Part shown: piece after piece, positions 42,677 through 48,713 of the stretch
Layout of the letters: the number at the start of each line of letters is the position of its first letter
Numbering within the stretch: the stretch's first letter is position 1
NCBI RefSeq assembly: GCF_937129525.1
Contig: NZ_CAKZNK010000050.1
Location: 1 to 64,000 of the forward strand
Length of the DNA stretch: 64,000 nt
Direction: 5' to 3'
DNA from: an uncultured Chloroflexus sp.
GTDB taxonomy: Bacteria; Chloroflexota; Chloroflexia; Chloroflexales; Chloroflexaceae
Notes under the pieces: generated by a model
Seen by the model: the letters and a program-made list of their open reading frames with translations, nothing else
The model's database searches: none
Told to the model about the DNA's origin: nothing
Program-made: the position numbers and the translations under genes

Positions 42677-45600
42677 CTACGCTGCATGGGCTTTGACCGG
42701 CTCTTCAGTGCCTTCGGCAGCGGCTTCAATCTGAGCCACTGCATCGCGTGGCCGCGCGACCAGGAAAAGATTGCGGTAGCGATCCCAGCGGGCCAAGATC
42801 TCACTCCCACGCGGACTCTTGGTCAATTCTACATGGCGACGGATCAGTTCGCGCACTCGCAGCTCATCGCGTTCGCTGAGCGGGCGTAGCTCAATCAGTT
42901 GCGGATTGTAGCGCTGAGCCAGCGTCGCGTATTCGTCAAGGACATACGCAATACCACCGGTCATGCCGGCGCCGAAGTTGCGTCCGGTCGAACCGAGTAC
43001 GACTACGGTGCCACCGGTCATGTATTCGCAACCGTGATCGCCAATTCCTTCCACCACTGCTGTCGCGCCCGAATTACGCACTGCAAATCTCTCACCAACC
43101 CGACCAGCCGCGTACAATTCGCCACCGGTTGCTCCGTAGAGCAGGGTGTTGCCGGCAATGACGTTCTCGTGCCAGACGTACTGCGCGTCGGGTGGGGGCG
43201 CAATCGTGATGATCCCGCCGGCCATGCCTTTGCCCACGTAGTCGTTGGCATCGCCTATCAGACGCAGTGTGACCCCCGGCGCATTAAAGGCGCCAAAGCT
43301 CTGGCCAGCGTGACCATAGAAGGTAATCACGATGGTATTGGCAGGCAACCCCTTGTCGCCGTAGAGCTGTCCAATCGCGCCAGCCAGGCGCGCGCCAACC
43401 GAACGGTCGCAGTTGTTGATCGGGTACTGCAACTGTACCGGCCCGCTGGCTTCCAGCGCGCTGGCCGTATCGCGCATAATCCGGTCGTTCAGGCTCTCTT
43501 CAGGCGGAAGAGCGTTCGGTTTGCCGCCATGTCGGATCGGGCCTTGTCCGATCAATGTTGCCGCGCCCAATACCGGCGTCATATCGAGCAGATCGGCGCT
43601 TTCCACCCCGGTCTGGCGTTGGCGTAGCAGATCGGTGCGCCCAACCGCTTCCTCAATTGACCGCAAGCCCAGACTGGCCAGGATCTCACGCACTTCTTGC
43701 GCGAGGTAGCGGAAGAAAGCCATGACCATTTCCGGCTTGCCGGGGAATTTGGCCCGCAAGTCACCACGTTGGGTAGCGATCCCAACCGGACAGGTATTGT
43801 TGTGGCAGGCGCGAGCCATAATACAGCCCTCGGCAACTAGCGCTGCCGTGCCAAACGAGAATTCATCGGCGCCGAGCAGCGCAGCCATGACCACATCACG
43901 CCCCGTCTTCAGGCCGCCGTCAGCGCGCAGCCGCACTCGCTCACGCAAACCGTTTAAGATCAATGTCTGTTGGGTTTCAGCCAGGCCCAATTCCCACGGT
44001 ATACCGGCATTCTTGATGCTGCTGAGCGGCGAGGCGCCGGTGCCGCCAGAATGACCGCTGATCAGGATCGTATCGGCATACCCCTTCGCTACGCCCGCGG
44101 CCACCGTGCCGACGCCGGTCGTCGCGACCAGTTTGACCGAGACGCGCGCATTCGGGTTGACCTGTTTGAGGTCGTAGATCAATTGCGCCAGATCCTCAAT
44201 GCTATAGATGTCGTGATGCGGTGGTGGGCTAATCAATGCCACGCCGGGCACCGTGTGTCGGATACGCGCAATTTCTTCATTCACCTTGTGACCGGGCAAC
44301 TGCCCGCCTTCACCCGGTTTTGCGCCTTGCGCCATCTTGATCTGCAACTCGCTGGCGCTGGCGAGATAGGCTGGCGTCACGCCAAACCGCCCCGATGCCA
44401 CCTGCTTGATCCGTGAATTGCGCTCGTCGTGATACCGTTCAGGCGCTTCGCCACCCTCGCCGCTGTTTGCCATCGCGCCCAGCCGATTCATGGCGATTGA
44501 AAGTGTCTCATGCGCTTCTGAACTGGTCGAGCCATGGCTCATCGCCGCCGTCGAAAACCGCTTCACGATCGACTCGATGGGTTCGACCTCATCGATTGGC
44601 ACTGGTGGGCCGGCTGGCACAAACTCCAGCAAGTCGCGTGGCTCAACCGGAGGTCGGTTATTAACCAGGTCGGCGTAGGCGCGATAAACCGCATACCCTT
44701 CGCTGCTCAGTGATGGCCCGGTGCTATCGCCATTGAGCGCGTGTGGATTCCGCACAGCCTTGTGCAGGGCATGCACCACTGCCGGACTGAAGGCGTGATA
44801 TTCGCCATCCTTTTTAAACTTGTAGAAACCAGGATGGGGCAGCGACACTCGCTCGGTCTGAAACGCGCGCCGGTGGCGGATGTCCAGATCGCGGGCAATA
44901 CGGCTAAACGAGAGACCGCCAACGCGCGAAGGGGTACCGACAAAGCAACGATCGATCACCTCTTGGGCCAAACCGATCGCCTCGAAAATCTGCGCGCCGC
45001 AGTAGCTGTCGAGGGTCGAGATGCCCATTTTCGACATAATCTTCAACAACCCCTTTTCGAGCGCATGAATGAAGTGCTGTTCCGCTTCGTCGGCCAGGTG
45101 ATGAGCGTGCAGCTTGGCTGGATCGCGGCTCATCCCGTGTTCGGCGCGCTGACGCGCGGCATCGCGCTCAAGTGTGATTCGGCGCACGCTGGCTATGGCC
45201 AGATACGGATTAATCGCTTCGGCGCCGTAGCCGATAAGGGTCGCCATATGGTGAACTTCGCGCGCTTCACCGGTTTCAACCACCAGGCTCACCCGTGACC
45301 GCAGCCCGGTTCGGATCAAGTGGTGGTGAACAGCGCCGGTTGCCAGCAACATCGGCAACGCGGCATGATCGGCATCGATACCGCGATCACTCAAGATTAC
45401 GATTGCTGCGCCGCTCTGAACTGCGGCAGCCGCTTCGGCGCTCACCCGCTCGAGCGCCTTGATCAGACTCTCGGCAGTAATATGCCGCGCCGGGAAGAGC
45501 GCACTGATCGTTGCCGGGCGGAGCAGCGGATCGGTCTGATTACGGATCGCCTGTAGTTGGGCATTAGTCAAAAAGGGCGAAGTCAATTGCAGCAGATGGG

Positions 45601-47278
45601 CGTGCTCTGGCGTTTCGAGCAAGATCGAGCGGCGGCGTCCGATCCCGATACTGATCGACATCACCAGCTCTTCGCGCAAGGGATCAATAGGTGGATTGGT
45701 CACTTCGGCAAAGCGTTGTTTGAAGAAGTGGAACAGCGGGCGACCTGATTCCCATTGGGAGAGTGGAGGAATGGGGGTGTCATCACCCATCGAACCGACC
45801 GGTTCGTGGCCGGTCATACCCATCGGTTTGATGATGACATTCAGCTCTTCGGAGGTATAGCCGAACGCCATCTGCAACGGTTGAAGATCCTCTTCTTCCT
45901 CTGCTGGAACGGCGGGCAACTCAGTGGGGAGATAACACAAACGTTCATTCAACCACTCAGAATAGGGGCGGCGGGAAGCCAGCAGCGATTTGACTTCGCT
46001 ATCGGTATAGATTCGACCGGCAGCGGTATCAACTGCCAGCATCTGACCGGGGCCAAGTTTGCCTTTACAGACGATCCGTGTTTCGGCGATCGGCACGGCG
46101 CCAACTTCTGAACCGGATACAACCAGACCGTCATCGGTGATGATGTAACGAGCCGGTCGCAGGCCGTTGCGATCGAGAGAAGTGCCGACGATAACGCCAT
46201 CGGAGAAGGCCAATGCCGCCGGGCCGTCCCATGGTTCGATCAAACAGGAATGGTACTGATAGAAAGCGCGCAGCGCCGGATCGATATCAGGCACCTTTTC
46301 CCAGGCTTCTGGCACAAGCATTGCGGCTGCGTGGCGAATATCGCGCCCTGCCATAACCAGCAGCTCAAGGGTATTATCGAGCATTGCCGAGTCGGATCCG
46401 TTTTCGTCAATCACCGGCAACAAATCGCTCATCGGTGGCGCGCCGCCAGGCAGGAAGTCATCAGGCAACGTAATCGCCAGTTCGCGAGCGCGCATCCAGT
46501 TCACATTACCCTGTAGCGTATTGATCTCGCCATTGTGCGAGAGCATGCGGAACGGCTGCGCGCGATCCCAGGTTGGGAAGGTATTGGTGCTGTAGCGTTG
46601 ATGATAAACGGCGATCGCCGTGGTGAAATCGGGGTCGCGCAGATCGAGGTAGAAATCGGCCAGATGCGAGCCGAGCAAGAGACCTTTATAGACGACAGTG
46701 CGAGTCGAAAATGAAGGGATGTAAGCAGGTAGACCGTCGCGGCGGAATCCCTGCTCCATAGCTTTGCGCGCCAGGAAAATCACACGTTCGAAGGCGCGAT
46801 CATCGAGGTCCTGGGGACGGCCAACGATTACCTGCCGGATGGTGGGCATTGCGCTACGCGCTCGATCGCCAAGCGCATCAGGATTGATCGGCACCTCGCG
46901 CCAGCGCAGCAGCGGCAATTGATAGCGCGCCAGCGCCTGTTCGATCAGCGCGCAAGCCGCAGCGCATTGGGTCGGATCGGCGGGAAGGAAGAGCATCCCC
47001 AGCGCGAGATCGGTATCGGCCACAGTGATGCCGGCAGCGGCCAGCTCGCGGCGTAGCAGACGCCGCGGTAATTGCGTCAACACGCCGGCGCCATCACCGG
47101 TGCGGGCATCATCAGCTACCGCGCCACGATGCTCAAGTCGGCTCAGGGCAGTCAGGGCCAGCTCGAGAATATCATGGCCTTCCCGACCATTAACGCGGGC
47201 TACGAAGCCAATGCCGCAGGCATCACGCTCAAAGCGCGGATCGTAAAGGCGGGCTGAGTCTCGCGCAGGAAGGTACAT
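42677..47278 (-). CDS. gltB: Glutamate synthase, large subunit
   Basis: A 1533-residue enzyme that forms two glutamates from glutamine and 2-oxoglutarate. After a 20-residue propeptide, Cys21 (ACGIGF) is the amidotransferase nucleophile of the class II domain. A central domain, the FMN-binding synthase barrel (LISPPPHHDIYSIEDL, SGHSGGTGASPLSS), the 3Fe-4S cysteines of CIMARACHNNTCPVG, and the C-terminal GXGXG beta-helix follow in the normal order. AAGGA seven bases before ATG 47278 sets the start. No gltD lies nearby, so the electron donor is either a distant small subunit or ferredoxin. A structured leader with an internal terminator precedes it. Confidence 0.97.
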   Translation of the reverse strand: MYLPARDSARLYDPRFERDACGIGFVARVNGREGHDILELALTALSRLEHRGAVADDARTGDGAGVLTQLPRRLLRRELAAAGITVADTDLALGMLFLPADPTQCAAACALIEQALARYQLPLLRWREVPINPDALGDRARSAMPTIRQVIVGRPQDLDDRAFERVIFLARKAMEQGFRRDGLPAYIPSFSTRTVVYKGLLLGSHLADFYLDLRDPDFTTAIAVYHQRYSTNTFPTWDRAQPFRMLSHNGEINTLQGNVNWMRARELAITLPDDFLPGGAPPMSDLLPVIDENGSDSAMLDNTLELLVMAGRDIRHAAAMLVPEAWEKVPDIDPALRAFYQYHSCLIEPWDGPAALAFSDGVIVGTSLDRNGLRPARYIITDDGLVVSGSEVGAVPIAETRIVCKGKLGPGQMLAVDTAAGRIYTDSEVKSLLASRRPYSEWLNERLCYLPTELPAVPAEEEEDLQPLQMAFGYTSEELNVIIKPMGMTGHEPVGSMGDDTPIPPLSQWESGRPLFHFFKQRFAEVTNPPIDPLREELVMSISIGIGRRRSILLETPEHAHLLQLTSPFLTNAQLQAIRNQTDPLLRPATISALFPARHITAESLIKALERVSAEAAAAVQSGAAIVILSDRGIDADHAALPMLLATGAVHHHLIRTGLRSRVSLVVETGEAREVHHMATLIGYGAEAINPYLAIASVRRITLERDAARQRAEHGMSRDPAKLHAHHLADEAEQHFIHALEKGLLKIMSKMGISTLDSYCGAQIFEAIGLAQEVIDRCFVGTPSRVGGLSFSRIARDLDIRHRRAFQTERVSLPHPGFYKFKKDGEYHAFSPAVVHALHKAVRNPHALNGDSTGPSLSSEGYAVYRAYADLVNNRPPVEPRDLLEFVPAGPPVPIDEVEPIESIVKRFSTAAMSHGSTSSEAHETLSIAMNRLGAMANSGEGGEAPERYHDERNSRIKQVASGRFGVTPAYLASASELQIKMAQGAKPGEGGQLPGHKVNEEIARIRHTVPGVALISPPPHHDIYSIEDLAQLIYDLKQVNPNARVSVKLVATTGVGTVAAGVAKGYADTILISGHSGGTGASPLSSIKNAGIPWELGLAETQQTLILNGLRERVRLRADGGLKTGRDVVMAALLGADEFSFGTAALVAEGCIMARACHNNTCPVGIATQRGDLRAKFPGKPEMVMAFFRYLAQEVREILASLGLRSIEEAVGRTDLLRQRQTGVESADLLDMTPVLGAATLIGQGPIRHGGKPNALPPEESLNDRIMRDTASALEASGPVQLQYPINNCDRSVGARLAGAIGQLYGDKGLPANTIVITFYGHAGQSFGAFNAPGVTLRLIGDANDYVGKGMAGGIITIAPPPDAQYVWHENVIAGNTLLYGATGGELYAAGRVGERFAVRNSGATAVVEGIGDHGCEYMTGGTVVVLGSTGRNFGAGMTGGIAYVLDEYATLAQRYNPQLIELRPLSERDELRVRELIRRHVELTKSPRGSEILARWDRYRNLFLVARPRDAVAQIEAAAEGTEEPVKAHAA

Positions 47279-47324
47279 CGCTCGTTCCTTGTTCTTCACT
47301 AATTGGAGACGGATCCAGATACAG

Positions 47325-47377
47325 ACAAAATAAAAACACGCTCACCACTCCTCATCAGTGAGGATAAACGGCGAGCG
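47325..47377 (-). terminator. Leader terminator/attenuator upstream of gltB
   Basis: On the minus strand CGCTCGCC pairs with GGTGAGCG (one G-U), an inner 6-bp stem TCCTCA/TGAGGA closes a 4-nt loop, and the U-rich tract TGTTTTTATTTTG follows. It lies inside the transcribed leader, 47 nt before the gltB ATG. The upstream GCGAG (47386-47382) can pair with the CTCGC of its 5' arm, giving an alternative hairpin. Confidence 0.75.
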
Positions 47378-47406
47378 CGCTCTCGCATTTCCGCTTACAT
47401 CAAAGA

Positions 47407-47457
47407 TGACAATATGGCTGCGTTGCAGCAGTCGCCTCCTGGCAACGAAGCCTGTCA
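47407..47457 (-). ncRNA. Structured element in the gltB leader
   Basis: A long imperfect helix in the gltB leader: TGACA/TGTCA, a 4-nt bulge, then GGCT-t-CGTTGC pairing with GCAACG-c-AGCC around a 15-nt loop. It sits between the promoter and the terminator, the place expected for a sensor domain. No known riboswitch class was recognised. Confidence 0.5.
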
Positions 47458-47581
47458 CATTTACTTGAACTGAATAATACGAATGGAAGATACAGGCGAA
47501 CGCCACACTCACTCTTCGAGTGTGACCACTGTACCACCCGGTACGGTTAAACAGCTTTGTTTTCGTGGATTATTTCCAAAT

Positions 47582-47611
47582 AATATACTGCAAATTGGGC
47601 AAGCGTGTCAA
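47582..47611 (-). promoter_or_regulatory. Promoter of gltB
   Basis: Minus strand TTGACA (47611-47606), 18-bp spacer, TATATT (47587-47582). The start near 47575 gives a leader of about 297 nt. Confidence 0.75.
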
Positions 47612-47666: not shown

Positions 47667-48536
47667 TCAGCCAGGTGTTTCCGTCAAGCGCCGTAACTCT
47701 TCAATCAACTGCCTGGCCTGAGGTGAGAGGTTGGTAGGTAACACTGCGCTGACAGTCACGTAAAGATCACCGTAGTGGTTGCTATGCATGAGCGGCATGC
47801 CATGGCCACTGATCCGAAAGACACGTCCATTCTGCGTTTGAGGCGGAATATTGAGGTTCAGCGTTTTACCAGACAGCAGCCGAATCTGCGTCTGCCCGCC
47901 GAGCAGTAAGGTATACATACTGACCGGTACCGTAACGTACAGATCGTTGCCCTTGCGCTCGAATTGGGCATGCGGCTTAACTGTCACCACAAGATAAAGA
48001 TCGCCGCGGCGACCGCCGTTGAGACCGGGTGCGCCTTCACCAGGGACGCGCACTCGTTTACCGGTATCGATACCGGCAGGTATCTTAACCGTGATCACGC
48101 GCGGAGTGCCGTTGGGATTGGAAAATTGCAGCGTGCGTTGAGTGCCGTTATAGGCCTCTTCGAGCGTCAATTCAACCGCTTGCTCAACATCTTGACCATC
48201 GAGACTAACATTGAACCCGCCGCCGGTAGCGTGGCGCGTGCCAAACAGCGTTTCAAACAGGTCGGCGAAATCGACCTGGCTGCCATAGTCAAACCCGCCG
48301 AAGCCGGCTTGCTCATAGCGGCGAAAATCGCTGCCGAAACGATCGTACTTGGCGCGCTGCTCCTGGTCAGACAACACCTGATACGCTTCGTTGATCTCTT
48401 TAAACCGCGCCTCGGCCTGTGGATCGCCGCGATTTATATCAGGATGGTACTTGCGCGCCAGCCGCCGGTAGGCCTGTTTGATCTCATCAGCGCTGGCCGA
48501 GCGGCTGACACCTAACACCTGATAGTAATCCTTCAT
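47667..48536 (-). CDS. DnaJ-class co-chaperone, CbpA type
   Basis: A 289-residue J-domain protein that stimulates DnaK. The J domain covers residues 1-68 with HPD at 31-33. A Gly/Phe-rich linker (GFGGFDYG) leads to two C-terminal substrate-binding beta domains (VKIPAGIDTGKRVRVPGEG). The cysteine-rich zinc region of classical DnaJ is absent, so CbpA-type is the best name. GAGG precedes the ATG at 48536. No dnaK or grpE is adjacent. Confidence 0.92.
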   Translation of the reverse strand: MKDYYQVLGVSRSASADEIKQAYRRLARKYHPDINRGDPQAEARFKEINEAYQVLSDQEQRAKYDRFGSDFRRYEQAGFGGFDYGSQVDFADLFETLFGTRHATGGGFNVSLDGQDVEQAVELTLEEAYNGTQRTLQFSNPNGTPRVITVKIPAGIDTGKRVRVPGEGAPGLNGGRRGDLYLVVTVKPHAQFERKGNDLYVTVPVSMYTLLLGGQTQIRLLSGKTLNLNIPPQTQNGRVFRISGHGMPLMHSNHYGDLYVTVSAVLPTNLSPQARQLIEELRRLTETPG

Positions 48537-48597
48537 GCTTTTCGCCTCATCCCACAGAATGAAAGCGCAATACGGCGCTATAGTGCGTGTGTTTTCG

Positions 48598-48626
48598 ATT
48601 GTAGAGAGCGTTTTCCTGTGAGTCAA
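48598..48626 (-). promoter_or_regulatory. Promoter of the dnaJ-like gene
   Basis: Minus strand TTGACT (48626-48621), 17-bp spacer, TACAAT (48603-48598); leader about 55 nt. No CIRCE operator is present. Confidence 0.7.
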
Positions 48627-48662
48627 GCCAGCCGGTGTTAGATTTGTGTTAGCATAACAACA

Positions 48663-48684
48663 GCGCGGGGAATATTCCCCGCGC
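48663..48684. terminator. 22-bp perfect palindrome
   Basis: GCGCGGGG-AATATT-CCCCGCGC is a perfect palindrome between the wHTH and dnaJ-like genes. On the minus strand it is followed by TGTTGTTATG, so it could end the wHTH transcript. An operator role is also possible. Confidence 0.55.
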
Positions 48685-48713
48685 CGACTCAATCGGGTTA
48701 CCGCAACGAATCG

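Follow-up and report, generated by a model that had tools for sequence, protein, structure and literature searches.

A predicted transcription attenuator with paired hexaloop hairpins, a probable ANTAR target, precedes the glutamate synthase gene of Chloroflexus

The stretch of DNA analysed here, referred to as the window, comprises 64,000 nucleotides of contig NZ_CAKZNK010000050.1 (positions 1 to 64,000) from an uncultured Chloroflexus sp. On its minus strand lies gltB, whose product carries the Pfam domains GATase_2, Glu_syn_central, Glu_synthase and GXGXG (PF00310, PF04898, PF01645 and PF01493), and a leader of about 297 nt separates this gene from its promoter. On the far side of the promoter, and adjoining it, is a codirectional gene for a DnaJ/CbpA-like co-chaperone (47667-48692, minus strand). 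The features of the locus are given below, with hairpin loops in square brackets; A1 and G4 denote adenine and guanine at loop positions 1 and 4.

42677..47278, minus strand: gltB, glutamate synthase large subunit, 1533 aa, identified by translation and Pfam
47325..47380, minus strand: intrinsic terminator, stem approximately 47380-47336, U-tract 47335-47325
47349..47364, minus strand: apical hairpin P2, TCCTC[ACTGAT]GAGGA, hexaloop with A1 and G4 at 47359-47354
47371..47386, minus strand: antiterminator hairpin P1, GCGAG[AGCGCG]CTCGC, hexaloop with A1 and G4 at 47381-47376
~47406..47458, minus strand: long imperfect helix, from folding
47502..47526, minus strand: distal hairpin CACACTC/GAGTGTG, with compensatory changes within the genus
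47582..47611, minus strand: sigma-70-type promoter, TTGACA-18-TATATT, 11 of 12 consensus matches

An earlier note on this DNA had placed a consensus promoter at 47582-47611 and a leader of about 297 nt downstream of it. The promoter is indeed close to consensus, and the coordinates of the leader were right. Promoters of the same class, with 11 of 12 matches, stand at the corresponding place throughout the seven Chloroflexus gltB leaders, and most other genera have one as well. The leader as a whole has a folding energy of -104.6 kcal/mol (z -4.36 against shuffled sequences). When it was scanned against Rfam, at default and at permissive (E<=5) settings, no family matched, neither the T-box nor any known riboswitch model.

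The conserved switch is found at the downstream end of the leader. The 3′ arm of P1 (CTCGC) doubles as the 5′ arm of the terminator, and it is plain from the sequence that CTCGC can pair in one or the other but not in both. P2 begins 6 nt past P1 and forms the tip of the terminator, within which it is nested; both stems are of 5 bp, and A1 and U6 of the P2 loop are able to pair. The earlier note had proposed a GCGAG/CTCGC hairpin in competition with a terminator arm, and an intrinsic terminator with a U-tract; we find the former as P1, at 47386-47371, and the latter with a U-tract whose last position, 47325, is 47 nt upstream of the gltB start codon (ATG at 47278). The predicted energy of the terminator is -26.6 kcal/mol, compared to -14.1 kcal/mol for P1 and P2 together, so that antitermination would need a helper. 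The same disparity in stability would suit a fixed attenuator, in which an unregulated terminator merely lowers the expression of gltB. However, the conserved hexaloop and 5′ arm of P1, which lie outside the core of the terminator, would then go unexplained, and we consider a fixed attenuator very unlikely.

The full leader can be aligned in seven Chloroflexus species, and a DNA search with the whole leader gave matches confined to the genus. The attenuator itself reaches further, being present before gltB in four Chloroflexales families. Reading of the gltB leaders reveals the same closing unit almost everywhere in the order: a small hexaloop hairpin whose 3′ arm is shared with a terminator, followed by that terminator. 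Among 32 sequences, 96% of cells in the terminator helix are paired, versus 27–56% when the alignment is slid, and six of the nine pairs show changes on both sides. The earlier note had named an absence of covariation in relatives as grounds for rejecting the element; instead, the terminator helix covaries across these 32 relatives. For the arms of P1, pairing is 74%, against 26–46% when slid. Position 1 of the P1 loop is adenine in 34 of 35 leaders of families f1 and f4, and position 4 is guanine in all 35, counts that are partly guided since the leaders were aligned on the P1 hairpin, although the terminator arm dictates where it lies. The CTC/GAG stem of P2 is near constant in the four families. 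Outside Chloroflexus the tip loop often has 7–8 nt, with G4 in about 29 of 40 leaders and A1 in fewer (two rows were re-read by hand). Family f2 departs from the pattern in that its first hairpin lacks an A1/G4 hexaloop.

A covariance model, R1, was built from the closing unit (the P1-type hairpin and terminator), with f2 left out of the training set. It matches before gltB in most f1 genomes and several f4 genomes, usually as the sole match in the genome. Matches fall almost exclusively before gltB, and four f2 genomes, outside the training set, give weak ones (E 0.02–0.07). A strict descriptor demanding a hexaloop on a stem of at least 4 bp together with a terminator is satisfied by 22 of 57 leaders versus 27 of 570 shuffles; some of these matches lie at other places, and bulged stems are missed. 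By these comparisons it is a unit of about 60 nt, rather than the 200 nt upstream of it, that evolution has kept. The conserved position, the covariation of the terminator and the conserved competing hairpin bear out the earlier proposal of a transcription attenuator, and we are close to certain that the gltB leader should be read as one. One R1 match outside the order, in genome G139, was set aside as a chance likeness, the locus being an ilvB leader-peptide attenuator. That leader (contig C4, approximately 1760-1500, minus strand; L274), from a member of the Chloroflexota outside the order, encodes a Leu/Val/Ile-rich peptide, MFVPLVLLNLVLVVLLSLLVIII..., followed by a terminator, and is a classical branched-chain amino-acid attenuator.

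Further upstream, folding reproduces at about 47458-47406 the long imperfect helix that had been proposed at 47407-47457. Some compensatory changes support it among the seven Chloroflexus species, at the level of the genus only. Since such changes are seen within the genus, the upstream helices are probably genuine RNA structure. Long helices of this kind are confined to Chloroflexus and a few of its sister genera, however, and the helix is absent from the genera with short leaders; it is not the core of the switch. The distal hairpin has a more suggestive counterpart. In the sister genera g5, g6, g11 and g13 its place is taken by an additional, upstream attenuator, complete with hexaloop and U-tracted terminator, such that gltB is preceded by two attenuators in tandem (for example in G011, G042, G049, G017 and G019; leaders L038, L039, L041, L043 and L046). 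In Chloroflexus no U-tract follows the distal hairpin, which we therefore read as what may be the remnant of an upstream attenuator, or an accessory site.

The earlier note had left the choice between a riboswitch and an attenuator undecided, and it is only the second of these that is supported. In a metabolite riboswitch, the upstream structure would sense glutamine, 2-oxoglutarate or ammonium and steer the choice between the GCGAG hairpin and the terminator, and the long, structured Chloroflexus leader (with the z score given above) and its compensatory changes speak in favour of such a device. Yet families f2 and f4 and genus g4 have only 12–37 nt between the predicted transcription start and the switch hairpin or its counterpart, and the switch is conserved there nonetheless. 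So short a stretch cannot accommodate an aptamer or a leader peptide, and the conserved unit thus appears to work without a sensor domain. Upstream sequence varies between genera, Rfam offers no match, and the A1/G4 identity of the hexaloops would be left unexplained; taken together, these points make a riboswitch quite unlikely. The glutamine (glnA) riboswitch resembles the present case in acting on nitrogen assimilation genes, but differs in that the gltB leader matches no Rfam family and its short-leader relatives leave no room for an aptamer. Lack of space also bears on ribosome-mediated attenuation, in which translation of a leader peptide would govern termination. A leader and terminator before an amino-acid biosynthesis gene are the expected setting for this, and the window does hold one ORF, of 29 codons with its ATG at leader position 188. 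This ORF is not conserved, however, the seven Chloroflexus leaders contain no conserved or SD-led ORF of at least 8 codons, and in the short-leader genera there is no room for one. A leader peptide can be given next to no weight as an explanation.

Contrary to the earlier view that no known class could be recognised, the two A1/G4 hexaloop hairpins constitute the signature of ANTAR-target RNAs. The definition of such RNAs in the literature asks for two hairpins, each with a stem of 3 bp or more and an A1/G4 hexaloop, that are joined by a short linker and are mutually exclusive with a terminator (PMC3369931; PMC8164766), and in the crystal structure of EutV bound to RNA, G4 is flipped out and stacked on a tyrosine (PMC8934654). 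In the window both loops, AGCGCG and ACTGAT, have A1 and G4, the 6 nt linker lies within the ranges for EutV (5–12 nt) and for actinobacteria (2–25 nt), and the genome encodes three ANTAR proteins with a receiver (REC) domain. In the canonical arrangement, overlap with the 5′ base of the terminator falls to the second hairpin; here it falls to the first, while the second is nested at the tip. When stems of 4 bp or more and a linker of 2–25 nt are required, dual A1/G4 hexaloops arise in 1.2% of the dinucleotide-shuffled versions of the leader. They occur at the same place in four of seven Chloroflexus species, or in six of seven once either purine is allowed at position 1; in the seventh (G006) both loops are present, with a first stem of 3 bp. 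Read by hand, the linker between P1 and P2 is 4–8 nt, within the EutV range or just below it.

Across whole families the strict dual descriptor is of less help, finding 9 of 34 leaders in f1, three of them at chance-like places, and failing in f4. A separate line of evidence comes from family f3, in which CTGC[RAHGAY]GCAG and then CAGC[RATGAY]GCTG (hairpins of CTGC[RRYGAY] type) lie 23–24 nt apart in the gltB leaders of seven of eight genomes, against 0.09 expected from shuffles. These genomes are closely related, so the observation represents few independent events; it is nonetheless support for an ANTAR reading that is independent of the Chloroflexus hairpins, at the level of sequence comparison.

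All 61 Chloroflexales genomes searched encode ANTAR proteins, between one and four each, compared to none of 14 control genomes. As every genome in the order has them, their presence does not discriminate within it; outside the order, genomes with and without ANTAR proteins alike lack the element. Each of the three ANTAR proteins in the window's genome combines a receiver domain with ANTAR. The protein encoded on contig C45 aligns best with the putative antiterminator 1s8n of Mycobacterium (E 1e-56) and EutV (E 1e-42); it keeps the RNA-contact residues Met-Asn-x-Arg of EutV, with Phe in place of EutV Tyr164. In this genome gltB has no ANTAR gene next to it; genome G017 carries one on the gltB contig, about 4 kb away. 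A search for a PdtaS-like sensor (PF12282) gave no match, but as the controls were equally silent this does not argue against such a sensor. The neighbourhood of one ANTAR gene is common to Chloroflexus and genus g5 (L148 6681-7283; L151 12434-13048), with genes for an O-methyltransferase-like protein and a GAF-containing, regulator-like protein on one side and for a DAHP-synthase-like protein on the other.

These observations can be accommodated by the following scheme. By default, the nascent RNA would fold into the strong terminator at 47380-47336, and transcription would stop before gltB. An activated REC-ANTAR protein, presumably a phosphorylated dimer, would recognise the A1/G4 hexaloops, holding P1 (47386-47371) as soon as it has emerged together with the tip hairpin P2 (47364-47349). 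With P1 held, CTCGC would be withheld from its partner in the terminator, and RNA polymerase would enter gltB. We infer that one of the three ANTAR proteins binds, with phosphorylation as the trigger and nitrogen supply as the signal. The same mechanics could be served by a regulator of another kind, be it some other RNA-binding protein or a transcription factor, paused or coupled, that recognises the hexaloop hairpin. Conservation of the hairpin and terminator would fit any loop-binding protein, and the departure from the canonical register and the loss of strict loops in f2 and f4 lean this way. On the other hand, the A1/G4 hexaloops, their spacing, the nitrogen gene context and the abundance of ANTAR proteins all fit one family that has already been described, and we regard a regulator from outside that family as improbable. 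ANTAR-dependent antitermination of gltB is in our judgement the best explanation, with a probability of roughly 0.75. This mechanism is held less firmly than the attenuator as such because of the differing register, the loose second loop, the exceptions in f2 and f4 and the fact that ANTAR binding is a prediction.

What is known of antitermination by ANTAR proteins comes mainly from Firmicutes, Proteobacteria and Actinobacteria. EutV acting on eut (Enterococcus faecalis), NasR on nasF and AmiR on amiE share with the gltB leader two short A1/G4 hexaloop hairpins, a short linker, a hairpin that excludes an intrinsic terminator, a nitrogen gene as target and REC-ANTAR proteins in the genome. They differ from it in that gltB has no adjacent sensor or ANTAR gene, and that in some genera the attenuators come as a tandem pair. 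The overlap with the base of the terminator likewise falls to the second hairpin in canonical ANTAR attenuators and to the first in Chloroflexus gltB, where the second is the terminator tip. Nitrogen genes make up most of the published ANTAR targets, those for glutamate synthase and ammonium transporters among them (PMC3369931). Ramesh and colleagues placed predicted ANTAR elements upstream of glutamate synthase genes in Desulfotomaculum reducens and of ammonium transporter genes in other organisms (PMC3369931); the D. reducens elements have the same type of target gene and the same motif definition as the gltB leader but belong to a different phylum, and the main text of that paper makes no mention of Chloroflexota. 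The dual hexaloop ANTAR RNAs of actinobacteria also have linkers of 2–25 nt and hexaloops with partial conservation of A1/G4; they act on translation or transcription (PMC8164766), whereas the Chloroflexus gltB leader has a terminator.

It is tempting to see in this a new architecture for ANTAR attenuators, in which the first hexaloop hairpin blocks the terminator and the second rides on its tip. Such an element would govern glutamate synthase, and perhaps the ammonium transporter too, in the whole of one Chloroflexota order. We put this forward tentatively, at somewhat less than even odds. Were the nested arrangement correct, the protein could engage both the terminated and the antiterminated folds. 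If ANTAR control is confirmed, the central step of ammonium assimilation in Chloroflexota would come under it, adding a phylum to its range, and the orphan REC-ANTAR proteins would gain a first target, with a model that can be tested through G4 mutants and ANTAR deletions.

Other nitrogen genes of these bacteria were also considered. The literature on nitrogen control in Chloroflexus yielded nothing relevant, and upstream of glnA no clear element combining a hexaloop with a terminator stood out. The Chloroflexus amt leader, by comparison of its sequences, is likely to be a second target of ANTAR type: it has two hexaloops with a purine at position 1 and G4, spaced 9 nt apart in every one of eight species. 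The stem of its first hairpin (P1) has only two strong pairs, and the loop begins with G in most species. The block is strongly conserved as GC[RATGRN]GC and CCTGC[RAYGAG]GCAG at constant spacing, followed by the conserved GATGGTTTGTGC (L213, L217, L219, L220, L222, L223, L224, L228). In one genome of family f4 (G030), glnA, amt and gltB follow one another in the same direction, with the attenuator between amt and gltB (L215, L251, L166).
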